Source: Flavobacterium sp. 1355 (lineage in GTDB: Bacteria > Bacteroidota > Bacteroidia > Flavobacteriales > Flavobacteriaceae). From it: 64,000 bases of DNA. The stretch covers positions 62,001 to 126,000 of the forward strand of contig NZ_JAFICC010000001.1 of assembly GCF_017833415.1 (NCBI RefSeq). The letters are read 5' to 3'. Below the pieces are notes generated by a model that saw nothing but the letters and a program-made list of their open reading frames with translations, was not told where the DNA came from and searched no databases. This document shows positions 18,008 through 36,484 of the stretch, piece after piece. Position 1 is the stretch's first letter; each line of letters begins with the position of its first letter. Both the position numbers and the translations under genes were made by a program.

Positions 18008-18015
18008 TAATTTTG
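18008..18015 (+). promoter_or_regulatory. Possible -7 promoter element of the TonB receptor gene
   Basis: TAATTTTG matches TAnnTTTG directly after the rplI terminator and 30 bases before the start codon. The expected -33 TTG would fall in the terminator and is not evident. Confidence 0.4.
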
Positions 18016-18045
18016 AGGGAAATAACTCACTCAAAATCAGAAAAA

Positions 18046-21000
18046 ATGAAAAAAATCTTTGTATTGTTGTTGTGTATTTTCGGTTTTACCGTCAGTGTAG
18101 CGCAGACTACAACATCGAGTATTAAAGGGATTGTAAAGGGTTCGGCAAACGAACTTTTGCCGGGAGCTACTGTTTTGGCAGTCCATACTCCGTCGGGTAC
18201 TAAATATTCTTCCCTGTCTAATGAAGACGGAAGATTTAATATTTTGAATATGAGAATTGGAGGGCCATACAAAATTACTGTCAGTTTTGTTGGTTACCAA
18301 AATCAGGAGTATAATGATGTTTATCTCGATTTAGGAAAAGTATTTAGCTTAGATGTAGACTTAACAAGTGAAAGCCAGGCTCTGGAAGAAGTAAAAGTGG
18401 TCTCTAAGAATAAAGTTTTCCAAAGCGGAAGAACAGGTGCAGAAACAACAATTGGCAGAAGAGAATTAACAGCTTTACCTACGATTTCAAGATCAGCAGA
18501 AGATTTCACCAGACTGGAACCAACAGCAAGCGGTGGTTCATTCGGGGGAAGAAATGATCAGTATAATAACTATTCTCTGAATGGAGCTATTTTTAATAAC
18601 CCGTTCGGACTCGATGCAGCAACCCCTGGCGGGCAGACTAACGCTCAGCCAATCTCATTAGATGCAATCGATCAGATTCAGGTAGCAACTGCTCCTTATG
18701 ATGTTACTTTGTCAGGATTTACAGGAGCTTCTGTTAATGCTGTTACAAAATCAGGAACTAACGAGTTTCATGGTACTGCCTATGCATTTTACAGAAATCA
18801 GGATTTAACCGGAAGTAAAATCAAAGGACAGAAAATATTTGTACCTTCTTTAGAGCAAACTCAGGCAGGATTTAGTTTGGGAGCACCAATTATAAAAGAT
18901 AAATTATTCATTTTTGGAAATTTTGAAATTGATAAAAGGACTGACTTAGGCTCTAATTTTATCGCCAATAACAATGATGGTATTACCGGAATTAATGAAT
19001 CCAGAGTTTTACAATCAGATTTAGATGCCGTTTCAAGTGCTTTGATGGGGTTAAAAGATGCACAGGGTAATAATTTTAATTATAATCCGGGAGCTTATCA
19101 GGGTTTTATCCATGAATCGAATTCTACTAAAGGGATTATAAAACTGGATTGGAATATTAATGATAACAATAAACTGGCTGTTATTTATAATTTCCTTGAT
19201 GCTTCAAAAGATAAGCCTGCACACCCAACCGCTTTAGGATTTAGAGGGCCAAATGCTTCAATACTTCAGTTTCAGAATGCAGGATATCAGATTAATAATA
19301 AATTAGATTCATTTTTATTAGAGTTAAACTCAAAATTTAGTGAGTCTGTTTCTAATAAACTTCAGGCTGGTTATACTTATTTTAATGATTTTAGAGATCC
19401 GTTTTCGTCTCCGGCTCCTGTAATTAATATTCAGGATGGATCAGGGGCAAATTATATTATTGCAGGTCATGAACCATTTTCTATCAATAATACGCTTAAG
19501 CAAAAAGTAATTCAGATTACCGATAATCTTACTTACACCAGCGGAAACCATGCCTTTACTTTTGGTTCTTCTTTTGAGAAATTTAATTTTGAGAATTCAT
19601 TCAATCTGGCAGGATATGACAATTTTGGAAATCCAAATGGTTATGCGGGAACTTTTTTTACTCCTTACTCAAACGTACAGGCATTTTTAGATGACGCGGC
19701 TAGGCCTTATGCTACTAGTATTGTTGCTCAAAACTTTCAGTATGCACAAGATATGGCAGAATCTAAAAGCAATTTTGCTGTTGGATCAGATGGCGGATGG
19801 AAACTGGCAGAACTTAATGTAGGTCAATGGGCATTTTATGCTCAGGATGACTGGAGTGTTGCTGATAATTTTAAACTGACAATTGGTTTAAGAGCAGATA
19901 AACCTTTGTATTTCAATACTGATGAGTTGATTCAGAAATATATTGACACTGATAATGGTGGAGCCGGACGAGATAATAATATAGATTATTATGATCCGGA
20001 AACTGGTAAGGCGGTTAAATTGATTTCAACAGATTTACCAAGCGATAAGATTTTATGGTCGCCAAGGCTTGGTTTTAATTGGGATATTAAAAATGATGCA
20101 ACCTCACAACTTCGAGGCGGATCAGGAATTTTTACCGGAAGAATTCCTTTTGTTTGGTTAGGAAACCAGGTTAGTGGTGCAGATGACAGCTTTTTCCAGA
20201 TTATGGATCCAAATTATAAATGGCCGCAGGTTTGGAGAACAAGTGTAGGTTTTGATCATAAATTTGAAAGTAATTATGTTTTGACAGTTGATGTATCTTA
20301 TAATAAAGATATTAATGGTGTTCATGTGCAAAACTGGGGCTTAAAAGATCCGACAGGAACTTTGGGCGGTGTAGATAACAGATTGATTTATACTGCTGCG
20401 GATAAAGGAGCTAATAATGCTTATGTAATGACAAATTCAGATAAAGGATTTGCTTTTAATAGTTCTATTAAGCTTCAAAAAACTTTTGAGAACGGATTTT
20501 ATGCAAGTTTGGCTTATAATTATTTGATTTCTAAAGATGTAAATTCTATTGAGGCTGAAATTACAGGTGATGCTTTTGCATTTAACCCTGCACTAGGAAA
20601 TGTAAATAAAGATGTGCTTTCTAATTCTAAATATGGAGATACGTATCGTTTTATTGGGGTAGCTTCAAAAAAATGGAGATATGGGAATGATAAATGGGCA
20701 ACAACGCTGTCTACTTTTTTTGAATATGCTCAGGGTGGACGTTTTAGTTATACTTATGGAGGAGATATAAATAATGATGGTTCTGCGGTGAATGATTTAA
20801 TTTATGTTCCTACCTCTGCTGAAATTGCACAAATGACATTTTCAGGAGCAGGACAAGGTGAGGCTTTTGATAAATTTATTGAGCAGGATGAATACTTAAG
20901 AGACAGAAGGGGTGAGTATGCAGAGCGTTACGGAGCAATTTCTCCATGGAGAGGAAAATGGGATCTGAAATTTTTGCAGGACTATAATTTCAGGGTTTCA

Positions 21001-21240
21001 TCCGCCTCAGAAAAAAAGAACACCATTCAGTTTAGTGTTGATATTTTGAATGTTGGGAACTTAATTAATTCGGATTGGGGAGTAGTTCAGGTGCCTACGA
21101 GTGTACAGCCGATTGGCGTGACTGTTGCAGGAAACACACCAACTTATACTTTTACTAATACTCAGACCAAAACGTTTAACTATGATGCTAGTTTAACATC
21201 AAGATGGCAAATGCAATTTGGTATTAGATATATTTTCTAA
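18046..21240 (+). CDS. TonB-dependent receptor, Oar-like, with carboxypeptidase-regulatory N-domain
   Basis: This 1064-residue outer-membrane protein has a signal peptide (MKKIFVLLLCIFGFTVSVAQ). A carboxypeptidase-regulatory-like domain follows (about 22-110; GIVKGSANELLPGATVLA and FVGYQ), then a plug-like region (GAETTIGRRELTALPTIS, FGGRNDQYNNYSLNGA, GASVNAVTKSGTNEFHG). The long beta-barrel ends in a C-terminal aromatic strand, WQMQFGIRYIF. The pattern is that of Oar/OmpW-type TonB receptors of Bacteroidota; the ligand is unknown, and no SusD-like partner is next to it, which argues against a standard glycan-uptake pair. The ATG at 18046 gives the signal peptide. A TAATTTTG -7 element lies at 18008-18015. 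Confidence 0.9.
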   Translation: MKKIFVLLLCIFGFTVSVAQTTTSSIKGIVKGSANELLPGATVLAVHTPSGTKYSSLSNEDGRFNILNMRIGGPYKITVSFVGYQNQEYNDVYLDLGKVFSLDVDLTSESQALEEVKVVSKNKVFQSGRTGAETTIGRRELTALPTISRSAEDFTRLEPTASGGSFGGRNDQYNNYSLNGAIFNNPFGLDAATPGGQTNAQPISLDAIDQIQVATAPYDVTLSGFTGASVNAVTKSGTNEFHGTAYAFYRNQDLTGSKIKGQKIFVPSLEQTQAGFSLGAPIIKDKLFIFGNFEIDKRTDLGSNFIANNNDGITGINESRVLQSDLDAVSSALMGLKDAQGNNFNYNPGAYQGFIHESNSTKGIIKLDWNINDNNKLAVIYNFLDASKDKPAHPTALGFRGPNASILQFQNAGYQINNKLDSFLLELNSKFSESVSNKLQAGYTYFNDFRDPFSSPAPVINIQDGSGANYIIAGHEPFSINNTLKQKVIQITDNLTYTSGNHAFTFGSSFEKFNFENSFNLAGYDNFGNPNGYAGTFFTPYSNVQAFLDDAARPYATSIVAQNFQYAQDMAESKSNFAVGSDGGWKLAELNVGQWAFYAQDDWSVADNFKLTIGLRADKPLYFNTDELIQKYIDTDNGGAGRDNNIDYYDPETGKAVKLISTDLPSDKILWSPRLGFNWDIKNDATSQLRGGSGIFTGRIPFVWLGNQVSGADDSFFQIMDPNYKWPQVWRTSVGFDHKFESNYVLTVDVSYNKDINGVHVQNWGLKDPTGTLGGVDNRLIYTAADKGANNAYVMTNSDKGFAFNSSIKLQKTFENGFYASLAYNYLISKDVNSIEAEITGDAFAFNPALGNVNKDVLSNSKYGDTYRFIGVASKKWRYGNDKWATTLSTFFEYAQGGRFSYTYGGDINNDGSAVNDLIYVPTSAEIAQMTFSGAGQGEAFDKFIEQDEYLRDRRGEYAERYGAISPWRGKWDLKFLQDYNFRVSSASEKKNTIQFSVDILNVGNLINSDWGVVQVPTSVQPIGVTVAGNTPTYTFTNTQTKTFNYDASLTSRWQMQFGIRYIF

Positions 21241-21806: not shown

Positions 21807-21828
21807 ATTGTACGATTATTTTTTAATT

Positions 21829-21877
21829 AAATAGGTAAATGATTGGTGTTAAATTATTTACCTATTTTTATTTTTTT
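21829..21877 (+). terminator. Intrinsic terminator after the hypothetical gene
   Basis: AAATAGGTAAAT at 21829-21840 pairs with ATTTACCTATTT at 21856-21867, followed by a T-rich run. Confidence 0.75.
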
Positions 21878-23033
21878 AACTTTTGTTTAATCTTTTTTAT
21901 TTTTCTATACCCGTATTTTTACGTGTTTTTTGTTAATATTGAAGGAATTAATTAATTTAATTAGATTATGTAAGTTTTACTTTTCAAATATATTTTTTTT
22001 CTTAAAAAAAGCATAAAAAAATTTCTTAAAAGTAATATTAAACTTACATATTTATTTTATTATGAAAAATACTTGATTTTTTTGAGATATCAATAATCGA
22101 TTACTTTTCTGTGAAAAACACTGTATTTATTAGGTTTCCAAGCGTTTGTGTAATTAGTACGGTTCTCGCTTTTTAAAAAAAATAAGAATTTTATGTTTGT
22201 TTTGTATTTTAATTTTTATTATTTTTAATCAAAGAAAGTTAAACAAACAACGTTTTTTGATTTGCCTAATAATATATCAAATTCATAATGATGATATATT
22301 TTTTAAACAATAATCATAACCCAGTTTACTTCTTGTTTTACAACGGTAATTTTAGAATTTAATTTATTTTGCCTATGGAATTGACAAATACTCTTTTACT
22401 CAAGTTTGCGTTAGTAACTCAAATTATTTTAGCTTTATATTTTTTGATTTCGTACACTTTAAAGTTTATTGTTAAAATAAATTTTGGTGTATTGGCAGAC
22501 TTGTTTTCTAAATTTAAATATTTCGTCAGTTTAAAATTTTTATTATTAAACCCATTCAATGGTTTTGTAATAAAAATTTGTTGTGACCTGATGACTTCAG
22601 GATGCAATAAATACCCCCGCTTTCATGATTCAATTTAATATTAAGTTATTCTAAAAACTTAATTTATTAATGGACAGCCTAATCAACTTCTGTTAATATT
22701 GTTTCATACATTATATTATAGAATTCCCCCCAATTCTAGAAATCTAAATTTTATCGATAAAATTTAGTACAAGCAACAAATCACTCCATCAGGAAAGCTG
22801 ATAGAATCAGTATGTCCTGTAAGTTCAAAAAAAGAATTATTTAGAAGAATTTATTAATGTATGCGCAATGCGTACGGAATTGTTATGTGATTTATGCAGA
22901 AATCTAATTTGAAGCCCTTAGCTAAGGTTTTAAGTTTATTCTAATCAATTTATTATTAGTGTTTTTTTAATTGCCTAGGCATCGTGCCTATTGCAACAGG
23001 TATTTTATTGTCCATTTTCTAATCTTCCAAATT
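21878..23033 (+). other. Long AT-rich non-coding leader before the giant surface-protein gene
   Basis: About 1.15 kb separates the terminator from the giant gene. It has no convincing gene. It holds an imperfect inverted repeat at 21968-22049 (ATGTAAGTTT / AAACTTACAT plus ACTTTT / AAAAGT), a TAGAATT-C6-AATTCTA repeat at 22719-22738, and a perfect 24-base palindrome at 22744-22767 centred on TATCGATA. A small AGGCA/TGCCT hairpin lies at 22977-22989. The size is unusual beside the short gaps elsewhere in this window. Confidence 0.5.
22744..22767. promoter_or_regulatory. Perfect 24-base palindrome
   Basis: Two 12-base halves (CTAAATTTTATC and its complement) meet without a loop, 266 bases upstream of the giant gene. 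It could be a regulator binding site or the tip of a cruciform or RNA hairpin. Confidence 0.5.
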
Positions 23034-26000
23034 ATGAAAAAAATCTTTACTTTTTGTAATCTCATTCATGAGAAGAGATTATTCGGACTATTATTTTTAT
23101 TCTTATTATGTAATAATGCGTTTTCGCAATCGGTTTGCAGACCAACATCGCAAACTAATAGCCAGGGCGGATTATTATGTGTAGGATTAGATGTAGATAG
23201 TCCCGCTAATGCCTATGATAATGACGCAGGCTTAGCAACGTATGCGACACTAACCAATGCCGTCGGGCTTGGCTGCTTTGTCGAAGAAACATTGACTTTT
23301 AACCAAACGGCAAGAGCCGGAGATGAGGTGTTGATTTATTTTGGGACCGGTAATGGTTTATTAGATGTTTCATTACTATCTAATGCCTCAATTCAGGCAA
23401 AATTATCCGGAACAAATGTTGGCGCAAGGACTTCACTAAACAGTCCTCTTTTGAATTTGAATTTATTGAATGGCAATGGTGTTGGGGTAGCACGTTATAC
23501 TCTGACCGGCGACGCCAATCAAATTCAGATTCAGGTCGGAGGGTTACTTAGTTTATTAGTGAGTCTGAGGATTTATGATGTTCGTCTGGATTTTGCAAAA
23601 CCTACAGTAACAGGTGGTTTGAACCAAACAATTTGCTCGGGCACTTCAGCTAACCTTACAGCAACACCTGTAGCAGGAACAACTTTAGCGTGGTATAGTT
23701 CTGCAACGTCTACAACGGCTTTAGCTACTGGAAATACTTTTACCACACCGAATTTAACAGCTAATACAACTTATTATATAGGTGTTACAAGAGCAGGTGG
23801 CTGTGAAGGAAGCGATCGTTTGCCGGTTGTAATTAATGTTTCGAATCCGATTGCACCTGTAATCAATACTTCTGGAACTTCTTTATGTTCAGCAGGGGCC
23901 ACACAACAGACAACATTATCGGTTTTAAATCCTATTCCCGGAACTACTTATTCCTGGTTTTCTTCTTCAAGCGGGGGAGTAGCTTTAGCCTCGGGAACCA
24001 CATATTCGCCAACAGTTCCTGTTGGTACAACCAATTTTTATGTAGAAGCTTCGATAGGGTCTTGTTTGAGTCCCGCAAGGGCTCCGGTAACTGTTGTATC
24101 TACTGCTATTCCGGCGGAACCAACTATCTTAACACAAAGTGTAACTATACAATCTGGGCAAAACGCCACCTTAATTGCGACAACATCTGAACCGGGAGTT
24201 CTTTTAAATTGGTATGACGTTCCGACAGGAGGAACTGCAGAGGCGCTTAATTCGCCAACATTTACCACTCCTATACTAACTGCCACAAAAACGTATTATG
24301 TTGAGGCACAAAACGGTTCAGGAAATTGTGTAAGTATGGCAAGAGTTCCTGCAATGGTAACAGTTATTCCGTCTGCTTTAGGAGGATGTTTAGAAGCAAA
24401 TAGCCAGCAGACTACAGTAAATGGTTTGTGTTTATTATGTACATCATCAAATCCTAATAATTCAGTTGACGGAAACCCAGCTACCGCGGCACGATTAACA
24501 CTTCCTGTTGGATTACTAAACGGATGGATTCAACAGACACTTCAGTTTAATAATCCTGGAAAAGCAGGAGATATTGTTGATGTAGAACTTGAACTGCCTG
24601 GTGGTTTGGCAGATCTTGCATTATTAGGCGGAGTAAGTTTAGCTACTTATAATGGAGCTACTTATAACAATGACAGGGTTTTTATTAATGATCCTTTGGT
24701 AAGTTTACAATTATTAACAGGAGACCGTTTTAGAGCGAGCGTAGTGGCAGGAGCTAATTTTGATCGTGTAGAAATTCGCTTTGGCGCTGTTGTAACAGTA
24801 CTAACAAGCTTAGATATTTATCAGGCTACTTATAGATATAAAGCACCCGCTATTACCGGAAATACAACTATTTGTACCGGACAAACTACGACATTAACAG
24901 CTGCACTTGCAGTTGGTGAAACAGTAAATTGGTATAGTGCTGCTACAGGCGGAAGTTCATTAGCTGCTACTGCTGCATTCACAACTCCGGCTTTAACAAC
25001 AGCAACAACGTATTATGTTGAAATAACCAGAAATGGTTGTGTAAACAGTGAACGTTCTGCCGTTTTAGTTTCAGTTAATAATCCTGTTGCACCATCTTTG
25101 GTTGCTGTTCCGGCAAGTTTATGTTCTGGTCAGGCTTCTACAATTACAGTTCAGTCACCGGTTGTGGGGACCACTTACAATTGGTATGATGCGGCTTCAG
25201 CAGGAAACTTATTATTTACAGGAACTTCATTTACAACTCCCGCTTTAACAACAAATACCAGTTATTATGTTGAAGCTGTTATTGGGGATTGTATATCTCC
25301 CACCAGAACTGCGATACCGGTTACTGTAACCCCATTACCTGCAGCTCCAACTGCAGCATCTACTACAGTAATTATTCAGACGGGTCAAAATGTAGCACTA
25401 CAGGTAAATCCGGTAGCGGGTATTGATAATGATTGGTATGATGTACCAACCGGCGGAACCGCAATAGCTGTTGATACCGACACATTTACTCCTTCTCCGG
25501 CTTTGACTGCGAATAAAACGTATTATGTTGAGGCAAGAAGTAACGGTTCAAATTGTTCGAGTACTACGAGAACTGCTATAAATGTTGTGGTTATCAATAC
25601 TGTGAGCAGTTGTTTACAGCCTAATTTGCAAAATGTAACAAGAGATCCTGGCTTATTATGTGTTGCCTGTACTTCGGCAAATGATTCTTTTTCTGTAGAC
25701 GGAAACATTAATACTGCTACAACTCTTTCAATACCTGTAGGAGTAGCAGGAAGTTATATACAACAAGAATTGATTTTTCCTACTGCTGGAGAAGCAGGTG
25801 ATATTATAGATGTAGAATTAGAGATTCCGGCTGGACTTCTTGATATAAGTGCGTTATCTTATATTAGTTTAGCAACCTATAATGGAGGGACTTATAATAA
25901 TGACAGAATAAATATCAATAACAATTTATTATCTATACAATTATTATCAGGAAATAGGTTTAAAGCGAGTTTTACTACAGCAGCTACATTTGACAGAATT

Positions 26001-29000
26001 GAAGTTAGATTAGGTGGAATAGCTACTTTATTAACGAGCTTAAATATTTATGGAGCTTCTTACAGGTTTCCAGATGCAGTTATAACAGGAAATGCTGCTC
26101 CAATTTGTTCAGGACAACAAGCAACATTAACAGCAACGGCTCCGGGAACACAAACTCAAACATTTACCTGGTATGATGCACCAACAGGTGGTGCGATTGC
26201 GGCTGTTAATCCTACAATTCCATTAACTGCTACAACAACCTATTATCTGGAAGCTGCACGAGCAGGTTGTGTTAATAGTGTTCGTCAGCTTGTTACTGTG
26301 AATGTAAATCCATATTCTACTGCTGCGGATGTTGTAGTTACAAGTCCAATTGAAGCAACTTGTGCAGGAGAAGCAGTGATTGCTCCAACAACTGCTTTAG
26401 CTGGTGCCGAGTTCAGATATTACACAGATCAGACTAAAGCACAAGAAATAATAACCGGAAGTGTTATTGGAGGGGTTACATTTACTAAAAATCCCGTTAC
26501 CGATGCGCTTTCGCTGAGCGGACTTACAGCTGCAGGAGTGCCTTATAACTATTTTATATCTGTTTCAAGCCCAACTACCTGCGAAAATGACATTAATACT
26601 CTACAGCCAGTAAATGTAACTATTCCAACGCAAACGCCTTTAGTGGTTACATCGCCATTAATTGCCTGTGGTAGTGCAGATCTTACAACTGCTATCACAC
26701 CGTTTGATACAACAGGAAATACAATATATACTTTTTATGACGCATCCAATAATGTAATAAATCAGGCTGCGGCAACAAATATAACTACAAGTGGTGTTTA
26801 CTCCATTCAAGCTCAGGGTAACGGAGTTACTTGTCCATCTGTTATACTACCAGTAACAGTTACAATTAATCCGTTGCCAAGTTTGAGTGTTATTCCTTCG
26901 ATTTCTATAAATGCCGGAAATGCTGTTGCCTTAAATGCAACATCTGATGGTACTCTTGCCTGGTTTGATCCACAAGGAAATGCCATAACAGGACCTCCAT
27001 TTTCAACAGGAATTTTAAATACACCTGGAATATATACCTATACAGTAGTAGCAAGCAATGCTAACTGCTCAAGAGCAGGGACTGTTTCTATAAATGTTAT
27101 TGATCCAACTAGTTGTCAGGATTTAACGCAAAGAGTGTATGCAAATGCACAAACATCAGGTTCGATTGTGACAGGAACTGTGTCTGATGGCGGAAACGCA
27201 GTTGATGGAAACCCTCAGACTTTTTCTACTATTACCACAGGAGTAGGATTATTAGGAGTGGGAACAACGTGGCAAAATTTAACATGGCCAGCGAATATCG
27301 TGAAAGGAACTCCTGTTACTATTAAACTAGGTTCCGAATATAGTGCAGTGGCATTAGGACAAAATTTATCAGTAATTGGAACCAAAGCCGGAGTTGATAT
27401 CGGAACAATGCAGCCTGTTTCAAATTCATTATTGAATTTATTATCAGGAGATAATGCATTTGAATTTAGTTTTGTTCCATCAGATGCTACAGGGCCGCAG
27501 GATTATGACGGAATCAGAATTCAGTCAGCATCAATTTTAAGTGTGGCTCAAAACACAAAAGTTTTTGATGCTTATTATACAAGATCAGTACCAACTGTTG
27601 CCTGTACTCCTGGTGATATTGAGGATATATATTATGGCGCAACAGATCTTGGAATAGGAGTGCTAACAGCAACAGTTGGTGTTACCGATCCATGGAATGT
27701 AGCTGATAATGACGTTACAACATTTGCTACTATGTATAGTGGTGCAGGAGTACTTGCATCTGCAGATTTGACAGTTGCATTTAAAACACCTTCGATTGCA
27801 AGTGATACATTAAGAATTGTGGTTTCGAAACCAGCAGTTCTTCTGGATGTTAATGCCCTTACTGGTTTTAGTATTCAGCGTTATTTAGGAAATGTTGCCG
27901 TTGGAGCTCCAATTCAAAATACAAGTTCATTACTTAGTATACGATTATTGCCAGGAAATACAATGTCAATGGTACTTGTAAATTCTCAGCCTGAACCTTA
28001 TGACCGAGTTAGAATCCGTTTTGGAGGAGTTGCAGGTGTGCTAGAATCTTTAAGAGTTCATACTGTTGAACGTGTAGCCAACACAGAAGTTATAGGAGCA
28101 GACCCTAATAATAAAGTGATTGTTTGTCCGGGCGCAGAGGTTACGCTGCAAATACCTGAAGAAGATTGTTCTAAATACGTTTGGTATGATGCACCTACAG
28201 GAGGAAATGTAGTAGCAAACGGAATAACATACACAGTTCCGTCAACGTTAGCTTCTGGAATCTACAGATATTATGTACAGCCAGTACGATATGGATGTGA
28301 ATCTTTTGCCAGAGGAGAAGTAGTCGTTGAGGTTAGAACGTCAAGCCCGGTAAATGCTTTGACAAATATAACGCTAAACGGAGCAGCTACAACCTCAATC
28401 TGTTCTCCAACCGGAACAGTAACATTAGCAACAGGTCTGACTGGAACTCCAGTATTAACAAGTCCAATCTACTATTGGTACAGTTTTGATGGAACAACCA
28501 GTCAGTTAATTTCAGGAGAAACAACGGCTCAATTAGTTGTTAATGGTTTAACTCCGGGGACTTATACCTATTATGTTGGAGTTAGTTCAAATGAATTTTG
28601 TGAAACTGCAGCAGCAGACAGAAAACAAATTACATTTACAATATTATCTCCTTCTGTCGCTACCGATATTTCTGTTGATGATACAGCAGTATGTCATGAT
28701 GTGCCAGCTTCTTTAACACCAACTGCAAGCACATTGACAAATCCAATATTTACTTGGTATCTGGATCCTAATAAAGCTCAACCTATAACAAACGGAGCAG
28801 TTATTAGTGGTGTAACTTATGCTATAAGCAGTACAGGTGTATTAACAACCACAGGTTTAACCCGCGCCTTGAGCCCGGTAACATATTATGTGGCAGTTTC
28901 CAGTAACACTACATGCGAAAATATTGCTGGTACGCTTCAATCTGCGACTATAATTATAAATGATCCTAATACGCCAACAACAACAGACGCCACTCAGGAT

Positions 29001-32000
29001 TTCTGTTTAGTGGATGCACCAACCTTTGCGAGTATTCAGGTAAATGAAACTAATGTAATTTGGTACAGTGCCGTAACAGGCGGAACCGCTTTTGCTTCAA
29101 CAGCTGCTTTAACGAGCGGAACCTATTATGGTGGTATTTTAGACCCTATAACTAGCTGTGAAAGTTCAGTTCGTTTGCAAGTAACGATCAGCGTTACTGA
29201 TCCGGGAACACCGACAACAACAGACACGACACAGGATTTCTGTTTAGTGAGTGCACCGACATTTGCAAGCATTCAGGTAAACGAGGCTAATGTGGTTTGG
29301 TACAGTGCTGCCACGGGAGGAACAGCTTTTGCTTCCACAGTCGCTTTGACCAGCGGAACCTATTATGGTGCAATTATAGATCCGGTAACCAATTGTTCAA
29401 GTAATACAAGACTGGCGGTAACGATCAGCGTTACCGATCCGGGAACACCGACTACAACAGATACCACACAGGATTTCTGTTTAGTGATTGCACCGACATT
29501 TGCAAGCATTCAGGTAAACGAAGCCAATGTAGTTTGGTATAGTGCTTCAACAGGCGGAACAGCCTTTGCTTCAACAGCCGCATTAACAAGCGGAACCTAT
29601 TATGGGGCAATCGTAGATCCGGTAACCAATTGTGCAAGCAATACAAGACTTGCGGTAACAATTAGCGTTACTGATCCAGGCACACCGACTACAACAGATG
29701 CTACTCAGGATTTCTGTTTAGTGGATGCACCAACATTTGCAAGCATTCAGGTAAACGAAGCCAATGTAATTTGGTACAGCGCTGCAACAGGCGGAACCGC
29801 TTTTGCTTCAACAGCCGCATTAACAAGCGGAACATATTACGGAGCAATCGTAGATCCTGTAACCAATTGTGCAAGCAATACAAGACTTGCGGTAACAATT
29901 AGCGTTACCGATCCGGGAACACCGACAACAACCGATGCTACTCAGGATTTTTGTTTAGTAAGTGCACCGACATTTGCAAGCATTCAGGTAAACGAAGCCA
30001 ATGTAGTTTGGTACAGCGCTGCAACAGGCGGGACAGCTTTTGCTTCTACAGCGGCTTTAACCAGCGGAACTTATTATGGTGCCATTTTAGATCCTACAAC
30101 TAGCTGTGAAAGTTCAGTTCGTTTGCAAGTAACAATTAGCGTTACCGATCCGGGCACACCGACAACGACAGACACGACACAGAATTTCTGTTTAGTAGAT
30201 GCACCAACCTTTGCGAGTATTCAGGTAAATGAAACTAATGTAGTTTGGTACAGCGCTGCAACAGGCGGAACCGCTTTTGCTTCTACAGCGGCTTTAACCA
30301 GCGGAACTTATTATGGTGCTATTTTAGACCCTATAACTAGTTGTGAAAGTTCAGTTCGTTTGCAAGTAACAATTAGCGTTACCGATCCGGCAACGCCGAC
30401 AACAACAGACACCACACAGGATTTCTGTTTAGTGAATGCACCAACATTTGCAAGCATTCAGGTAAATGAAACTAATGTAATTTGGTACAGTGCATCAGCG
30501 GGCGGAACGGCTTTTGCTTCAACAGCCCCTTTAACAAGTGGAAGCTATTACGGGGCAATTATAGATCCGGTAACCAATTGTGCAAGCAATACAAGACTGG
30601 CAGTAACAATTAGCGTTACCGATCCGGGCACCCCGACAACAACAGACACTACTCAGGATTTATGTTTAGTAAGTGCACCGACATTTGCAAGCATTCAGGT
30701 AAACGAAGCCAATGTGGTTTGGTACAGTGCTGCAACGGGAGGAACTGCTTTTGCTTCTACAGCGGCTTTAACCAGCGGAACTTATTATGGTACTATTTTA
30801 GATCCTACAACTAGCTGTGAAAGTTCAGTTCGTTTGCAAGTAACAATTAGTGTTACTGATCCGGGAACACCGACAACGACAGACACGACACAGGATTTCT
30901 GTTTAGTTAGTGCACCGACATTTGCAAGTATTCAGGTAAATGAAACTAATGTAATTTGGTACAGTGCCGCAACGGGCGGAACAGCTTTTGCTTCAACAGC
31001 CGCTTTGACCAGTGGAACCTATTATGGGGCAATTATAGATCCGGTAACCAATTGTGCAAGCAATACGAGACTTGCGGTAACGATCAGTGTTACCGATCCG
31101 GGAACACCGACTACAACAGATGCTACTCAGGATTTTTGTTTAGTTAGTGCACCGACATTTGCAAGTATTCAGGTAAATGAAACTAATGTAATTTGGTACA
31201 GTGCTGCAACAGGTGGAACCGCTTTTGCTTCAACAACTGCTTTAACCAGCGGAACCTATTATGGGGCAATTATAGATCCGGTAACCAATTGTGCAAGCAA
31301 TACAAGACTGTCAGTAACCATCAGTGTTACTGACCCGGGTATACCGACAACAACAGATACTACACAGGATTTCTGTTTAGAAAGTGCACCGACATTTGCA
31401 AGCATTCAGGTAAACGAAGCCAATGTGGTTTGGTACAGTGCTGCAACGGGCGGAACAGCCTTTGCTTCAACAACTGCTTTAACCAGCGGAACCTATTATG
31501 GTACTATTTTAGACCCTACAACTAGCTGTGAAAGTTCAGTTCGTTTGCAAGTAACGATCAGCGTTACCGATCCAGGCACACCGACAACGACAGACACGAC
31601 ACAGGATTTCTGTTTAGTTAGTGCACCGACATTTGCAAGTATTCAGGTAAATGAAGCCAATGTAATTTGGTACAGTGCCGCAACGGGCGGAACAGCTTTT
31701 GCTTCAACAGCCGCTTTAACAAGTGGAACGTATTATGGAGCAATTATAGATCCGGTAACCAATTGTGCAAGCAATATAAGACTGGCAGTAACCATCAGTG
31801 TTACTGACCCGGGTACACCGACAACAACAGACACGACGCAGGATTTCTGTTCAGTAAATGCACCAACATTTGCGAGCATTCAGGTAAACGAGGCTAATGT
31901 GGTTTGGTACAGTGCCGCAACAGGGGGAACCGCCTTTGCTTCAACAGCGATGCTAACAGACGGAACGTATTACGGAGCAATTGTAAATCCTTCCGGTAAC

Positions 32001-33416
32001 TGTGAAAGTGTAACAAGACTGCAAGTTACTGTTACAATCGGAAATCCGGCAGCAACGCCTACAACAACAGATGCTACGCAAAATTTCTGTTCTTTAAATT
32101 CACCAACAGTTGCTAATATTCAAGTAAATGAAGCAAATGTGATTTGGTATAGTACTGCAACAGGCGGAACTGCAATTCCTGCTACAACTGCTTTAACAAC
32201 AGATACTTATTATGGAGCAGTAACAAGCGTTACAGGTTGTGAAAACCCAGTTAGATTAGCGGTTCAGGTAAATGTAAATACACCAGGTATAGTTACAACG
32301 CCTAATACGACTCAAACATTTTGTTTGTCTGCAAATCCAACAATTGCAAATATATTAGTAAATGAACCAAATGTAATTTGGTACTCTTCTGCAACAGGCG
32401 GGACACCATTGGCGGCAAATGCAGCTCTTACGGCGACTACTTATTATGCAGTAGCATTGAGTAACAACTCAAATGGATGTATTAACGTTACTCGTTTGGC
32501 AATAGCTATAGAATTTGAAAATGATGCTCTTGTACAGCTTACGACAAGTGATAATACACCATGTGTTTTCCAAAATGTAACCTATTCAATTGCAAACGGA
32601 AAATCAGATTATGTGTGGTCAGTTTCTAATGGAACAATAACTTCCGGCGGAGGAAATACAGATGGCTCTGCAACAGTATCGTGGTCAGATGTTGGCCCGG
32701 GAACAGTAACGGTTACGTATACTAATAACTGTGACGAGACAACTACAAAAACATTAAATGTTACAGTAGCATCATGTTCAGACTTAACGATAACAAATAC
32801 AGTTAGTAATCCAACACCAAACTTTGGAGAAGAAATTGTCTTTACTATAAAAGTTAATAATGTTGGAGAAGGACTAATTAACAATGTACTTGTTAGTGAA
32901 TTAATTCCAAGTGGATATACTCTTGTGTCATCTTCTGCATCAAGCGGAGTGTATGATACGGCAACACAAGTATGGACAATTCCTAGTTTACCAGCAGGAA
33001 CAAGTGAAACTCTTGAAGTGAGAGTTCTGGTATTACCTAGTGGAAATTACAATAATGTTGCAACAATAGAAATCTCAACTCCTTTAGATGTTGATCCGAC
33101 AAATAATTCAGCTACAGCCTTAGTAGATCCAATTTGTTTGACAGTGTATAATGAGTTTACTCCAAATAATGACGGAGCAAATGATCTTTTCAGAATTGAT
33201 TGTATCGAAACGCATCCAAATAATGAACTTAAAGTTTTCAACAGATACGGTGCGTTAGTATACAGCAAAAAGAATTATGAAAATGATTGGGACGGCACTG
33301 CCAATGTATCGGGAGTTATAAATAGAGGAGATATGTTGCCAACAGGTACTTATTTTTATTTGATAGACACTGGAGACGGGACGATTAAAAAAGGATGGTT
33401 ATCTATAATGAGATAA
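23034..33416 (+). CDS. Giant T9SS type B surface protein (SprB-like adhesin), Ig-like and tandem repeats
   Basis: This 3460-residue protein is exported to the cell surface. It has a Sec signal peptide (about 1-31) and five Cys-led modules of about 155 residues near 33, 450, 856, 1359 and 1522. Ig-like units of the type with WYDAPTGG and TTYYVEA motifs lie between them and up to about 1978. Thirteen near-identical 79-residue repeats run from 1980 to 3007, and two diverged repeats reach about 3160. A PKD/Ig-like unit, a DUF11 domain (about 3250-3360, NTVSNPTPNFGEEI and LIPSGYTLVSSSAS) and a C-terminal gliding-type sorting domain (about 3363-3460, FTPNNDGANDLF, VFNRYGALVY, GTYFYLID) complete it. 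SprB of F. johnsoniae is a moving adhesin with similar logic but is larger. I chose the Met at 23034, which gives the signal peptide. PorP/SprF and OmpA genes follow directly, so they probably form one operon. Confidence 0.93.
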   Translation: MKKIFTFCNLIHEKRLFGLLFLFLLCNNAFSQSVCRPTSQTNSQGGLLCVGLDVDSPANAYDNDAGLATYATLTNAVGLGCFVEETLTFNQTARAGDEVLIYFGTGNGLLDVSLLSNASIQAKLSGTNVGARTSLNSPLLNLNLLNGNGVGVARYTLTGDANQIQIQVGGLLSLLVSLRIYDVRLDFAKPTVTGGLNQTICSGTSANLTATPVAGTTLAWYSSATSTTALATGNTFTTPNLTANTTYYIGVTRAGGCEGSDRLPVVINVSNPIAPVINTSGTSLCSAGATQQTTLSVLNPIPGTTYSWFSSSSGGVALASGTTYSPTVPVGTTNFYVEASIGSCLSPARAPVTVVSTAIPAEPTILTQSVTIQSGQNATLIATTSEPGVLLNWYDVPTGGTAEALNSPTFTTPILTATKTYYVEAQNGSGNCVSMARVPAMVTVIPSALGGCLEANSQQTTVNGLCLLCTSSNPNNSVDGNPATAARLTLPVGLLNGWIQQTLQFNNPGKAGDIVDVELELPGGLADLALLGGVSLATYNGATYNNDRVFINDPLVSLQLLTGDRFRASVVAGANFDRVEIRFGAVVTVLTSLDIYQATYRYKAPAITGNTTICTGQTTTLTAALAVGETVNWYSAATGGSSLAATAAFTTPALTTATTYYVEITRNGCVNSERSAVLVSVNNPVAPSLVAVPASLCSGQASTITVQSPVVGTTYNWYDAASAGNLLFTGTSFTTPALTTNTSYYVEAVIGDCISPTRTAIPVTVTPLPAAPTAASTTVIIQTGQNVALQVNPVAGIDNDWYDVPTGGTAIAVDTDTFTPSPALTANKTYYVEARSNGSNCSSTTRTAINVVVINTVSSCLQPNLQNVTRDPGLLCVACTSANDSFSVDGNINTATTLSIPVGVAGSYIQQELIFPTAGEAGDIIDVELEIPAGLLDISALSYISLATYNGGTYNNDRININNNLLSIQLLSGNRFKASFTTAATFDRIEVRLGGIATLLTSLNIYGASYRFPDAVITGNAAPICSGQQATLTATAPGTQTQTFTWYDAPTGGAIAAVNPTIPLTATTTYYLEAARAGCVNSVRQLVTVNVNPYSTAADVVVTSPIEATCAGEAVIAPTTALAGAEFRYYTDQTKAQEIITGSVIGGVTFTKNPVTDALSLSGLTAAGVPYNYFISVSSPTTCENDINTLQPVNVTIPTQTPLVVTSPLIACGSADLTTAITPFDTTGNTIYTFYDASNNVINQAAATNITTSGVYSIQAQGNGVTCPSVILPVTVTINPLPSLSVIPSISINAGNAVALNATSDGTLAWFDPQGNAITGPPFSTGILNTPGIYTYTVVASNANCSRAGTVSINVIDPTSCQDLTQRVYANAQTSGSIVTGTVSDGGNAVDGNPQTFSTITTGVGLLGVGTTWQNLTWPANIVKGTPVTIKLGSEYSAVALGQNLSVIGTKAGVDIGTMQPVSNSLLNLLSGDNAFEFSFVPSDATGPQDYDGIRIQSASILSVAQNTKVFDAYYTRSVPTVACTPGDIEDIYYGATDLGIGVLTATVGVTDPWNVADNDVTTFATMYSGAGVLASADLTVAFKTPSIASDTLRIVVSKPAVLLDVNALTGFSIQRYLGNVAVGAPIQNTSSLLSIRLLPGNTMSMVLVNSQPEPYDRVRIRFGGVAGVLESLRVHTVERVANTEVIGADPNNKVIVCPGAEVTLQIPEEDCSKYVWYDAPTGGNVVANGITYTVPSTLASGIYRYYVQPVRYGCESFARGEVVVEVRTSSPVNALTNITLNGAATTSICSPTGTVTLATGLTGTPVLTSPIYYWYSFDGTTSQLISGETTAQLVVNGLTPGTYTYYVGVSSNEFCETAAADRKQITFTILSPSVATDISVDDTAVCHDVPASLTPTASTLTNPIFTWYLDPNKAQPITNGAVISGVTYAISSTGVLTTTGLTRALSPVTYYVAVSSNTTCENIAGTLQSATIIINDPNTPTTTDATQDFCLVDAPTFASIQVNETNVIWYSAVTGGTAFASTAALTSGTYYGGILDPITSCESSVRLQVTISVTDPGTPTTTDTTQDFCLVSAPTFASIQVNEANVVWYSAATGGTAFASTVALTSGTYYGAIIDPVTNCSSNTRLAVTISVTDPGTPTTTDTTQDFCLVIAPTFASIQVNEANVVWYSASTGGTAFASTAALTSGTYYGAIVDPVTNCASNTRLAVTISVTDPGTPTTTDATQDFCLVDAPTFASIQVNEANVIWYSAATGGTAFASTAALTSGTYYGAIVDPVTNCASNTRLAVTISVTDPGTPTTTDATQDFCLVSAPTFASIQVNEANVVWYSAATGGTAFASTAALTSGTYYGAILDPTTSCESSVRLQVTISVTDPGTPTTTDTTQNFCLVDAPTFASIQVNETNVVWYSAATGGTAFASTAALTSGTYYGAILDPITSCESSVRLQVTISVTDPATPTTTDTTQDFCLVNAPTFASIQVNETNVIWYSASAGGTAFASTAPLTSGSYYGAIIDPVTNCASNTRLAVTISVTDPGTPTTTDTTQDLCLVSAPTFASIQVNEANVVWYSAATGGTAFASTAALTSGTYYGTILDPTTSCESSVRLQVTISVTDPGTPTTTDTTQDFCLVSAPTFASIQVNETNVIWYSAATGGTAFASTAALTSGTYYGAIIDPVTNCASNTRLAVTISVTDPGTPTTTDATQDFCLVSAPTFASIQVNETNVIWYSAATGGTAFASTTALTSGTYYGAIIDPVTNCASNTRLSVTISVTDPGIPTTTDTTQDFCLESAPTFASIQVNEANVVWYSAATGGTAFASTTALTSGTYYGTILDPTTSCESSVRLQVTISVTDPGTPTTTDTTQDFCLVSAPTFASIQVNEANVIWYSAATGGTAFASTAALTSGTYYGAIIDPVTNCASNIRLAVTISVTDPGTPTTTDTTQDFCSVNAPTFASIQVNEANVVWYSAATGGTAFASTAMLTDGTYYGAIVNPSGNCESVTRLQVTVTIGNPAATPTTTDATQNFCSLNSPTVANIQVNEANVIWYSTATGGTAIPATTALTTDTYYGAVTSVTGCENPVRLAVQVNVNTPGIVTTPNTTQTFCLSANPTIANILVNEPNVIWYSSATGGTPLAANAALTATTYYAVALSNNSNGCINVTRLAIAIEFENDALVQLTTSDNTPCVFQNVTYSIANGKSDYVWSVSNGTITSGGGNTDGSATVSWSDVGPGTVTVTYTNNCDETTTKTLNVTVASCSDLTITNTVSNPTPNFGEEIVFTIKVNNVGEGLINNVLVSELIPSGYTLVSSSASSGVYDTATQVWTIPSLPAGTSETLEVRVLVLPSGNYNNVATIEISTPLDVDPTNNSATALVDPICLTVYNEFTPNNDGANDLFRIDCIETHPNNELKVFNRYGALVYSKKNYENDWDGTANVSGVINRGDMLPTGTYFYLIDTGDGTIKKGWLSIMR
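28971..32054 (+). repeat. Thirteen tandem 237-bp coding repeats
   Basis: Thirteen units of 79 codons each begin ACxCCxACxACxACxGA (TPTTTD) and contain DFCLV, FASIQVNE, WYSAATGGTAF and TSGTYYG. All keep exactly 237 bp; only the last has one extra codon. Two diverged units follow (32055-32288 and 32289 to about 32515). The units differ by scattered silent and missense changes and by two alternating 3' halves (DPVTNCASNTRLAV or DPTTSCESSVRLQV). Confidence 0.95.
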
Positions 33417-33461
33417 CACTATTTAATCACATCTAATTAATTTAACTAAATAAGTATCGTT

Positions 33462-34394
33462 ATGAAACTATATATAAAATCATTAGAAACATATTTCATT
33501 TTAATATGTTCTTTTATCACGTTTTGTGTCAGTGCGCAACAAGATCCGCAATATACACAATATATGTACAATACTATGGCCGTAAATCCTGCTTATGCAG
33601 GGTCTACGGGTAGTTTAGAAGCAACGCTTTTACATCGTTCCCAATGGGTAGGAATATCAGGAGCACCTGAAACACAATCATTCTCAATTCACGGACCACT
33701 TGCAAATGAAAAAATTGGTCTTGGATTAAGTGTTGTCAATGATAAAATTGGACCTTCGAACGAGTTGTACCTGGATGGAAATTTATCTTATTCAATACCT
33801 CTTGGATATGAAAAGCGATTGGCTTTTGGATTAAAAGCCGGTATGCGTATGCTAAATATAGACTGGTCAAAAGGACGATATTATAACAACAACGATGTCC
33901 TGTTAAATCAAAATATTGAAAATCAGGCAAAGTTGGCTGTCGGAGCTGGTGTTTATTACTACACTGACAAATGGTATTTAGGACTTTCGGTTCCTTCTTT
34001 TATTCAAAGTAATTATTACGATGATGTGCAGGAATCTATAGATTATGATCGAATGCATTATTTTTTAATGGGAGGTTACGTGTTTGATTTGAATCCAAAT
34101 TTAAAATTCAAACCGGCATTTTTAGTAAAAGCGGTGAGTGGGGCTCCAATTACGGCCGATGTTTCAGCAAACTTCATGATAGCCGAAAAATTTGTCATAG
34201 GTAGTGCTTACAGAACAGATGATTCTGTTAGTATACTGGCAGGTTTTCAAATATCGAGAAGCTTTTTCATCGGGTATTCTTTCGACTACACTATAAGTGA
34301 ACTCAACAAGTATAACGATGGTTCACATGAAATCATTCTGCGCTATTCGTTTAATAAAGGTGAAAGCAAAATCAAATCTCCTCGATTCTTCTAA
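33462..34394 (+). CDS. PorP/SprF family T9SS membrane protein
   Basis: The 310-residue outer-membrane protein has a signal peptide ending FCVSAQ, then the family hallmark QDPQYTQYMYNTMAVNPAYAGS. LHRSQWVGISGAPETQSFSI and many beta strands follow (GLGLSVVNDKIGPS and FFIGYSFDYTISEL near the end). In F. johnsoniae, SprF is encoded next to SprB and is needed for SprB to reach the surface. Related paralogues pair with other type B cargo. The gene begins 45 bases after the giant gene and ends 11 bases before the OmpA gene, so it is most likely the dedicated partner of that cargo protein. Confidence 0.93.
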   Translation: MKLYIKSLETYFILICSFITFCVSAQQDPQYTQYMYNTMAVNPAYAGSTGSLEATLLHRSQWVGISGAPETQSFSIHGPLANEKIGLGLSVVNDKIGPSNELYLDGNLSYSIPLGYEKRLAFGLKAGMRMLNIDWSKGRYYNNNDVLLNQNIENQAKLAVGAGVYYYTDKWYLGLSVPSFIQSNYYDDVQESIDYDRMHYFLMGGYVFDLNPNLKFKPAFLVKAVSGAPITADVSANFMIAEKFVIGSAYRTDDSVSILAGFQISRSFFIGYSFDYTISELNKYNDGSHEIILRYSFNKGESKIKSPRFF

Positions 34395-34405
34395 AAACAA
34401 AGTCT

Positions 34406-36340
34406 ATGAAAAATATATATATCCTAAGTTTAGTACTGAGTTTTACGGTTAGTTTCGCTCAGACTAATTTAAAGAAAGCGGATGCCCTGTTTAGAAATTA
34501 TTCATACGTAGATGCTTCAAAAGCCTACGAAGAAATTTTGCAAAACATAAAAAAGCCGTCAGCACAAACGTTAAAGAATACAGCAGATTCGTATTACTTT
34601 ATTTCAGATGCAAGAAATGCACTTAAATATTACAAAAAGTTATATGAAGTTCAGGGAAATAATTTGACAGACATTTATTATTTGCGTTACATACAGTCTT
34701 TAAAAGGAGTAATGGATTATGATGAAGCAAATAAAGTGATAAAAGAGTATCTGGAAAAAAAGGGAGATAAAAACGAAATCAACAGATATACTGCCCAAAA
34801 GAAACAACTGGACAGTTTGTCTAAAACTAAATCTCTTTATAATGTAAAAAATCTCGATATCAATACCAGTAAATCTGATTTTGGGGCTACTAATTTTCAG
34901 GATAAAATTGTGTTCACATCCGCAAGGGATACCACAAAATTTAGTGAAAAATTATACACATGGAATAATCAGCCTTTCTTAAATCTTTATGTTGCAGAAA
35001 GAAATCCCGCAGACGGAAGTTTGTTTAATGAAAAATTGTTCTTAGCAAACGTTATGAGCAAGTATCATGAAGCAACAGCAACTTTTGACAGCAGTGGAAA
35101 GACTATTTATTATTCGACAAATATTGTCAAAAAAAATAAACTGGTTGTAGATGAAAATAAGATTAATAATTTTCAAATCATCAAAGGCCAGATAGTCGAT
35201 AATAAATTAGAAAATTCCGAATCTGTGTTTTTTGACAGCAATGACTATTCAGTCGGACACCCTTCATTGAGTGAAGACGGAGAATGGCTTTTCTTTGCAT
35301 CAGATATGCCTGGTGGTTATGGTGAAACAGATTTGTATTACGTAAAAATTGCGGCTGACGGTACTATGAGTTCTCCTGTAAATTTGGGGCCAAAAATAAA
35401 TACACTTGGTAATGAAGTTTTTCCATTCTTTAGAAACGGAACTCTTTATTTTTCTTCAGACGGACATTACGGAATCGGAGATTTAGATGTATATGAAAGC
35501 ATTTTTTTAGCCGATGGAACATTTTCTGTTCCTCGCAATTTAGGAGCCCCAATAAACAGTAATAAGGATGATTTTTCTTTTATTATTGATAAAACGGATA
35601 GTTTTGGTTACGTCTCTTCTAATAGAGAAGGAGGGAAAGGCGACGACGATATTTATTCTTTCACCAAAGGAAAACCGGTCTGCAACCAGAATATTTCAGG
35701 TATTGCTGTTGACAGAAAAACAAAACTACCTCTTACTGATGTTGTAATTATGGCATATAACTCTTATAGCGATGTTCTTGCAGAAACAAAGACAAATTAT
35801 GAAGGCAAATATGCAGTTGTGGTTCCATGCGGTAAATCAGTCAAAATGATTGCTGCAAAACCCAACTATAGCAGTGACGATAAAACAGTAGAAACAGGAA
35901 CCGAAAACGAAGGCGAAATTAAAAATATCAATTTTGAACTGAGCAACTACGACGATCTTGTTGTAAAGAAAAAAGGAGTAGAAAAAGTAGATGTTAACCC
36001 AATTTATTTTGATTATGATAAGTATGATATTACTCCGCCGGCAATAGAAGAATTGTCAAAAGTCGTTTTTATCATGCGTAAATTTCCTAACATCCGAATT
36101 AAAATTGAATCACATACAGATTCTCGCGGAAAAGATGCTTACAACCTCAAACTTTCTGACAACAGAGCTAAATCAACAAGAGATTATATTGTCTCTCAGG
36201 ATATTGATGCCTCACGAATAGAAAGCGCAATAGGGTATGGTGAAAGTAAATTAGTCAATAAATGTAAAAATGGAGTTAAATGTACAGAAGAAGAACACTT
36301 GTTAAATAGACGTTCCGATTTTATTATTATTCAAAAATAA
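34406..36340 (+). CDS. OmpA family protein with TPR-like, PD40 and carboxypeptidase-regulatory domains
   Basis: This 644-residue protein has a signal peptide (MKNIYILSLVLSFTVSFAQ). A TPR-like helical region (about 20-135) follows, then WD40/PD40-type beta repeats (about 150-430, with GHPSLSEDGEWLFFASDMPGG and FPFFRNGTLYFSSDG). A carboxypeptidase-regulatory-like domain (about 433-520) precedes a C-terminal OmpA domain (about 530-644) with the peptidoglycan-binding pattern YFDYDKYDI, SHTDSRGKDAYNLKLSDNRA and GYGES. It should be periplasmic, tying the envelope partner of the adhesin to peptidoglycan. It is the third gene after the giant adhesin and PorP/SprF, an arrangement seen repeatedly at T9SS type B loci. 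Confidence 0.92.
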   Translation: MKNIYILSLVLSFTVSFAQTNLKKADALFRNYSYVDASKAYEEILQNIKKPSAQTLKNTADSYYFISDARNALKYYKKLYEVQGNNLTDIYYLRYIQSLKGVMDYDEANKVIKEYLEKKGDKNEINRYTAQKKQLDSLSKTKSLYNVKNLDINTSKSDFGATNFQDKIVFTSARDTTKFSEKLYTWNNQPFLNLYVAERNPADGSLFNEKLFLANVMSKYHEATATFDSSGKTIYYSTNIVKKNKLVVDENKINNFQIIKGQIVDNKLENSESVFFDSNDYSVGHPSLSEDGEWLFFASDMPGGYGETDLYYVKIAADGTMSSPVNLGPKINTLGNEVFPFFRNGTLYFSSDGHYGIGDLDVYESIFLADGTFSVPRNLGAPINSNKDDFSFIIDKTDSFGYVSSNREGGKGDDDIYSFTKGKPVCNQNISGIAVDRKTKLPLTDVVIMAYNSYSDVLAETKTNYEGKYAVVVPCGKSVKMIAAKPNYSSDDKTVETGTENEGEIKNINFELSNYDDLVVKKKGVEKVDVNPIYFDYDKYDITPPAIEELSKVVFIMRKFPNIRIKIESHTDSRGKDAYNLKLSDNRAKSTRDYIVSQDIDASRIESAIGYGESKLVNKCKNGVKCTEEEHLLNRRSDFIIIQK

Positions 36341-36446
36341 TTCTATATTATGTCCTAATTGATTGATAATCATTGAGAATATAGAATATAAAAACCATTT
36401 GGAAGTTGGTTTTGATTCATTCTTTTAAGAATAATGGACAAGAAGA

Positions 36447-36484
36447 AAATCAAGTTGCATTTATTTGCAGCTTGATTTTTGATT
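36447..36484 (+). terminator. Intrinsic terminator of the adhesin-SprF-OmpA operon
   Basis: AAATCAAG at 36447-36454 pairs with CTTGATTT at 36471-36478 with an inner TGCA/TGCA match, followed by a T-rich run. It lies about 105 bases after the OmpA stop. Confidence 0.65.

Follow-up and report, generated by a model that had tools for sequence, protein, structure and literature searches.

A giant type B adhesin candidate, its carrier and a PorE-like protein in Flavobacterium: a conserved gene set and a carrier-tail pattern

Organization and conservation of the gene set

We analyzed a 64,000-nucleotide (nt) stretch of the Flavobacterium sp. 1355 genome (contig NZ_JAFICC010000001.1, positions 62,001 to 126,000), hereafter called the window, in which three consecutive genes most likely encode a static surface adhesin of the type IX secretion system (T9SS), its outer-membrane carrier and a wall anchor. 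All of the features described here lie on the forward strand. The first gene (23034..33416) encodes a giant type B T9SS cargo of 3460 amino acids (aa), a putative adhesin recognized from open reading frames (ORFs) and from TIGR04131 and Pfam matches. Its ORF spans 22971..33416, and the product starting at the ATG at 23034 has a mass of approximately 358 kDa and an N-terminus, MKKIFTFCNLIHEKRLFGLLFLFLLCNNAFSQ, that resembles a signal peptide as judged by eye. It is followed after 45 nt (33417-33461) by the gene for a PorP/SprF-family outer-membrane carrier of 310 aa (33462..34394), and after a further 11 nt (34395-34405) by the gene for a PorE-like protein of 644 aa (34406..36340). The ORF coordinates thus agree with the original prediction, made from the letters of the window, in gene order and in both gaps.

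Profile hidden Markov model (HMM) searches, which had been proposed as a check on the first two genes, gave scores above the cut-off for both. The C-terminus of the cargo (residues 3370-3460, 33141..33413) matched the type B C-terminal sorting domain (CTD) TIGR04131 with 60.3 bits against a cut-off of 35, as well as the CHU_C domain PF13585 (8.9e-27), so that the type B sorting domain described earlier is borne out. The second gene is indeed PorP/SprF over nearly its full length (TIGR03519, 297.9 bits against a cut-off of 90.55, model positions 7-292 of 292; PF11751, 2.6e-94). A search of solved structures with the carrier listed short or weak matches to SAKe-named chains and one mannanase, and no PorP or SprF chain. 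The carrier ends in the motif S-P-R-F-F (34377..34391) within the cysteine-free tail KSPRFF; cysteines occur in it at residues 16 and 22 only, and inspection of the whole sequence showed no Cys-X-Cys of the SprF type in the C-terminal tail.

The nearest carriers were those of Flavobacterium sp. HTF (95% identity) and F. reichenbachii (91%). We also examined the best 80 loci of a set of named genomes, which was picked by similarity to the window carrier and overlaps the family set described below. These loci hold 78 distinct carriers, 74 of which have a PorE-like gene directly downstream, and 72 of those 74 end in SPRFF. As judged from these sequences, many Flavobacterium have orthologous three-gene sets, and the arrangement is conserved.

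Domain composition of the cargo

The cargo had been described as five modules, immunoglobulin-like (Ig) units, 79-residue repeats and a DUF11 domain. We found the modules, the repeat array and the DUF11 domain (residues 3250-3363, 32781..33122; PF01345, 1e-29), but the modules do not form one block, because Ig_7 domains separate modules 1 and 2, 2 and 3, and 3 and 4; the only adjacent pair is 4 and 5. Nor are the Ig units and the repeats two families: both are Ig_7 (PF19081), which matches 23 stretches of the cargo and is also matched by a single 79-residue unit taken alone (34.0 bits, cut-off 27.3).

The array itself, delimited by TRF (score 3678, period 237, 12.7 copies), Pfam and alignment, comprises 13 consecutive Ig_7 units of exactly 79 residues (residues 1978-3004, 28965..32045), with a mean pairwise amino acid identity of 86.5% and nucleotide identities of 73-94%; diverged units follow. 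It is likely a stalk of variable length. Because strong repeat matches range from 5 to 23 in 22 relatives, with many of the counts taken on ORFs truncated at the locus end, stalk length appears to vary among relatives. In 11 relatives (L200, L202, L207, L209, L210, L211, L213, L215, L217, L219 and L225), the contig breaks off upstream of the orthologous carrier, at a distance of approximately 1.9 to 3 kb, and these ends sit at the expected place of the giant gene's repeat array. Such ends are as expected if repeat arrays break assemblies, and the repeat count for the window may suffer from the same effect.

The five N-terminal modules, each of approximately 155 residues, are mutually homologous by alignment. 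Relative to module 2 (residues 451-602, 24384..24839), the identities are 31% for module 1 (residues 33-187, 23130..23594), 55% for module 3 (residues 859-1012, 25608..26069), 24% for module 4 (residues 1360-1517, 27111..27584) and 27% for module 5 (residues 1524-1679, 27603..28070). When the modules were scanned singly against Pfam, no match reached the cut-off, and the sole match listed at E-values up to 0.1 among the five was a sub-cut-off Peptidase_C25_C on module 4. An HMM of the modules was also used, and the scores of the window's own modules were set aside since the HMM had been built from those same rows. Fold prediction was made for module 2, and the AlphaFold2 (AF2) model, computed with 57 other rows, is a jelly roll with a mean predicted local distance difference test score (pLDDT) of 90.3 and a predicted template modelling score (pTM) of 0.87. 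Most of its best structural matches, with Z-scores of 10 to 11.5, are to modules that bind sugars, to lectin domains or to glycosidases, including 2okx, 2j1t, 3lei, CBM4 and CBM32. The fucose-binding module 2j1t, for example, was aligned over 123 residues with a Z-score of 11.0, a root-mean-square deviation of 3.2 Å and 11% identity.

In its predicted fold, module 2 resembles CBM32 and fucose-binding lectin-like jelly rolls (2j1t, 3lei; Z-scores of about 11); it differs from them in the low sequence identity, and none of the five modules has a Pfam match at the cut-off. We consider it probable that the cargo has a lectin-like tip formed by the N-terminal modules, module 1 being lectin-like or like a carbohydrate-binding module (CBM) by homology. 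Several points weigh against going further. IFT25 was first by Foldseek E-value among the fold matches of module 2 (Z-score of 10.5), and indole-alkaloid cyclases were also among the best rows; by their titles, none of these is a sugar binder. The galactose-binding-like jelly-roll fold occurs in many families, some of which do not bind sugars, and the likeness of the model does not show sugar binding. Glycan binding by the modules is inferred.

The PorE-like protein and a probable static adhesin system

The third protein had been called an OmpA/PD40 anchor. Its OmpA peptidoglycan-binding-type domain (residues 534-624, 36005..36277) is real (PF00691, 1.8e-18; best solved chain 6top, 61.9 bits), but 'PorE-like protein' is the better name. 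Pfam gave, in addition to OmpA, weaker PD40 and CarboxypepD_reg matches and no tetratricopeptide repeat (TPR) match. In the predicted model of the orthologue at locus L239, a TPR-like region of helices, a propeller-like region rich in strands and a small domain of strands are seen together with a domain resembling OmpA. The domain order of PorE, namely TPR, beta-propeller, carboxypeptidase regulatory-like domain (CRD) and OmpA, is recovered when the profile and Pfam matches of the window protein and the L239 model are taken together.

Sets of this kind have precedents. A PorE-PorP-PG1035 complex has been isolated in Porphyromonas gingivalis (Gorasia et al. 2022, PMC9143113), where a carrier, an OmpA-domain protein and a type B cargo are thus found in one complex. 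The same paper reports that six F. johnsoniae porP-like genes adjoin porE-like genes. Its authors postulate that those type B proteins which move depend on PorP alone, whereas non-mobile ones are anchored further via PorP-PorE. P. gingivalis differs from the window in having only one PorP and one type B protein (PMC9143113). In F. johnsoniae, there are 12 type B substrates, nine of which are encoded beside a carrier gene, with five operons including a PorE homologue, and dependence on the cognate carrier has been shown for two type B substrates (Paillat et al. 2025, PMC12618676). Fjoh_3952 is static and requires its cognate carrier for export, and SprB and Fjoh_4750 move (PMC12618676). The genes Fjoh_3952, Fjoh_3951 and Fjoh_3950 encode, in the order seen in the window, a type B cargo, a PorP/SprF carrier and a PorE-like protein. 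The carrier at L356, presumably Fjoh_3951, ends in TSPRFF and has a PorE-like gene downstream, as in the window; it is a paralogue with 48% identity to the window carrier, and that of the L380 set in the same genome has 87% identity. The static, wall-anchored reading of such type B, PorP and PorE sets is therefore largely in print.

With the gene order, domains, orthology, one predicted module fold, the SPRFF end and the lack of a tail cysteine observed at this locus, we consider it very probable, by analogy, that the set is a static adhesin system in which a T9SS type B cargo is served by a PorP/SprF carrier of its own and by a PorE-like wall anchor. The cargo would exit via Sec and then through the SprA translocon. 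The adjacent carrier would pick up the type B CTD and stay bound to it, holding the adhesin on the outer membrane, while the PorE-like protein would tie the carrier to peptidoglycan through its OmpA domain. The adhesin would thereby be fixed in place and would not ride the gliding track; its CBM/lectin-like modules would serve as a glycan-binding tip and the Ig_7 array as a length-adjustable stalk. Carrier-dependent export, the PorE-PorP-cargo complex, the binding of PorE to peptidoglycan and static behaviour are carried over from the papers on other loci. The genome also fits this system: it encodes SprA and GldK, the latter with cysteines at 286 and 344, near Cys285 and Cys343 of F. johnsoniae (PMC12635249). 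The original prediction of a cargo with its own carrier and OmpA anchor thus stands as the best reading of a conserved set, but not as a new idea.

Some results weigh against this static system. The third protein scored 306.9 bits with the PorE model NF052230, under the curated cut-off of 600, and is therefore PorE-like and not PorE by the curated rule. Its best model was the CHU_0125-type OmpA protein of an outer-membrane-integrity family, likewise under the cut-off (381.7 bits against 620). No lipobox cysteine is present in the third protein, the first cysteine being residue 426, whereas P. gingivalis PorE has been described as a lipoprotein (PMC7192894). We also considered docking of the SPRFF tail on PorE, using an AF2 model of a read-through PorP-PorE chain, that is, one chain with the PorE signal peptide as linker, computed from 55 rows, only 11 of which contain both proteins in one chain. 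As the tail and linker were disordered (residues 275-295 with pLDDT <50; pTM of 0.56), such docking is not supported by the fused model.

The two profile scores and the lack of docking would suit a rival explanation, in which the PorE-like gene is a mere neighbour that serves general envelope integrity and PorP alone holds the adhesin. Carriers that share the tail of the window carrier and lack an adjacent PorE-like gene, described below, also speak for it. The family set, drawn from 31 genomes of the bacterial family (31 genera), is the best-scoring part of 215 PorP matches, so that low-scoring carriers are under-sampled. It comprised 151 distinct ORFs, those of the window's genome included, and 144 remained after seven were dropped (six fusions or cut ORFs and one without room downstream). 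A PorE-like gene lies directly downstream of 86 of the 144 family carriers, as it does for 74 of the 78 named-locus carriers. These frequencies and the complex isolated in P. gingivalis (PMC9143113) count against a mere neighbour, and we regard that explanation as improbable.

The comparison with SprB and SprF

The set had also been compared with SprB of F. johnsoniae, whose export needs SprF. SprB/SprF is like the window in that a giant type B cargo is followed by a SprF-family carrier. A mobile gliding adhesin, carried on the GldJKN track by its carrier, would agree with this repetitive cargo and adjacent carrier and with the presence of SprA and GldK genes in the window's genome. However, the Cys-X-Cys in the SprF tail forms a disulfide bond with GldK, a protein of the moving track, and is needed for continuous movement (Liu et al. 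2025, PMC12635249), and the window carrier lacks it. Moreover, as described in PMC9143113, sprF has no adjacent porE, whereas the PorE-like gene 11 nt downstream of the window carrier belongs to its set. The analogy with SprB/SprF is therefore misleading.

The other sets in the window's genome argue in the same direction. Six PorP matches exceed the cut-off there, four of them directly after a type B gene, and three PorE matches spanning most of the model (one in two pieces) lie beside three of those four carriers. An exact search of all codings found that the three PorE-linked carriers are the only ORFs >33 aa ending in PRFF. A separate type B frame of 7001 aa is followed by a SprF-like carrier that ends in NCPCTQSPVHD and has no PorE beside it. 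A second cysteine-tailed carrier, ending in DCNCPAIN, has neither a type B gene nor PorE beside it. Because the window carrier has no cysteines in its tail and is followed by a PorE-like gene, we rejected a SprB-like gliding role for the window cargo as very improbable and retained the static system as the most likely mechanism for this locus.

Two further PorP-related frames were observed. At L019:5652-10361 (G000:C2, about 299.7 kb), a 1569-aa protein that matches the PorP domain is encoded immediately upstream of a large frame continuing past the locus end; by position, it resembles SprD of a sprC-sprD-sprB-sprF cluster. At G000:C3:367193-367348 (L007), a 68-aa frame matches PorP positions 2-55 only (44.6 bits) and is possibly a carrier remnant.

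Carrier tails and adjacent PorE-like genes

In the family set, all 86 PorE-linked carriers end in P-R-(F/Y/L)-(F/Y), and none has a cysteine in the last 15 residues. The residue before the PR motif is S in 69, T in 12 and N in five, and 47 end exactly in SPRFF. The 58 carriers without an adjacent PorE-like gene comprise 32 with a tail cysteine, 12 with a PR-aromatic end and 14 with neither. The very end of the tail is better conserved than the stretch before it: the majority fraction is 0.17-0.37 over eight columns and then 0.80, 1.00, 1.00, 0.79 and 0.95, compared with a mean of 0.555 over all 304 columns, so that P and R are invariant and the eight preceding residues are poorly conserved. 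At loci L024-L167, PR(F/Y)(F/Y) ends occur in 95 of 144 carrier ORFs and in 0 of 408 other ORFs of >=150 aa.

A wider set gave a similar but looser picture. Its loci, 28 from a search and 60 hand-picked regions, include some Flavobacterium, and 85 of 89 ORFs were judged after two fusions and two ORFs without room downstream were dropped. PR-aromatic ends were found in 28 of the 34 PorE-linked carriers, the other six ending in the variants SPR, SPRL, CPRL, GPRFFN, NQRWF and SLRHF. Of the 51 carriers without PorE, 35 have a tail cysteine and two a PR-aromatic end.

In F. johnsoniae CI04, PRFF and PorE go together in six carriers; another two carry Cys-X-Cys and lack PorE. Genome G269, probably that of F. 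johnsoniae UW101 or of a very close relative, has 12 type B matches; six of its carriers combine PRFF with PorE, three lack PorE and bear a pair of tail cysteines, and one more shows neither feature. Judging by position and strand, the static Fjoh_3951 would be a PRFF/PorE carrier, and SprF, Fjoh_1677 and Fjoh_4749 would be the three cysteine-tailed ones. These tail types fit the mobility reported for the cargoes of SprF, Fjoh_1677 and Fjoh_4749.

From these distributions, we infer that the SPRFF tail either signals the link to PorE or brings it about. We further propose, tentatively and with somewhat less than even confidence, that the carrier tail is a two-state address, in which a cysteine tail links the adhesin to the GldK track, which moves, and S-P-R-F-F at the C-terminus links it to the PorE-like wall anchor. 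Several observations count against the inferred tail link and such an address. The 12 PR-aromatic carriers and the 14 with neither tail type, among the 58 family carriers without PorE, do not follow it, and because the wider set contains both variants and three PorE-linked carriers of 34 with a tail cysteine, the rule is not strict. Fjoh_1123, presumably served by the cysteine-tailed Fjoh_1677, shows mostly static foci and moves in only 3% of cells (PMC12618676). On a tree with 15 changes of PorE state, the associations of PorE with PRFF (median p 0.125) and with cysteine (median p 0.25) were not significant. Across 12 independent pairs differing in PorE, the tail went along in 4.2, went the opposite way in 0.1 and did not differ in 7.7. 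The signal thus comes mostly from one large clade; Fisher values of the link ignore relatedness and were not used as evidence.

A C-terminal aromatic residue is a classical signal of outer-membrane barrels, and the SPRFF tail may instead be a signal for folding or for the barrel-assembly (BAM) machinery. This explanation concerns the tail only and is compatible with the static system. However, in the model of the L239 orthologue the last strand stops approximately 13 residues short of the C-terminus and a stretch of low conservation intervenes, and many PorE-less carriers of this family have no SPRFF-type end. We consider this explanation rather doubtful.

Two groups of carriers were noted in addition. 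L024, L040, L045, L066 and L103 hold pairs of a type B gene and a PRFF carrier without an adjacent PorE, and downstream of the carrier each has a similar small gene (start like EE-VILVNE-...-GTMPKMEAH); these carriers may share PorE from another set. At L190, L191, L193, L194, L296, L297, L304 and L310, which belong to other families of the class, the carriers have Cys-Pro tails (for example, SCPRNVW and PCPKF) and no adjacent PorE, and such tails are perhaps a local form of the track-linking cysteine.

Surroundings of the gene set

A DUF6495 gene lies on one side of the set and a gene for an NAD-dependent DNA ligase on the other. Farther upstream (18013-21240), a 1075-aa outer-membrane beta-barrel protein (OMP_b-brl_4 and CarboxypepD_reg) is encoded, separated from the giant gene by the DUF6495 gene and approximately 1.2 kb of A+T-rich intergenic DNA. 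This long intergenic stretch (21807-23033) contains a single TAnnTTTG, at 22192, which has the form of the Bacteroidota -7 element. The promoter scan of the region was uninformative (50 sites against 53.7 expected). The single terminator said to end the set is present as a terminator-like hairpin at 36445-36480, with 15 pairs followed by a T-rich run, but the support is a consensus match only; the region holds 18 such matches, compared with 10.4 +/- 3.5 in shuffles.

Implications

The kind of set described here has been published; new here are the probable lectin-like tip and the carrier-tail pattern. Our literature search, which left most subscription papers and bioRxiv preprints outside its scope, found no published report of an SPRFF carrier-tail motif. 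The word 'tail' does not occur in the text of PMC12618676, nor do 'static', 'paralog' and 'SprF-like' in that of PMC12635249. The two papers bear on what would separate fixed from moving type B adhesins: the cargo CTD and its carrier decide according to PMC12618676, and PMC12635249 shows that the bond to the track is made by a cysteine pair in the carrier tail. The tail pattern joins both views in a five-residue difference that is directly testable. If the tail address is true, exchanging tails would convert fixed adhesins into gliding ones and vice versa, and mobility would be predictable from sequence for further carriers. The adhesin of the window, for its part, would be a surface protein that is conserved in Flavobacterium and may bind glycans.

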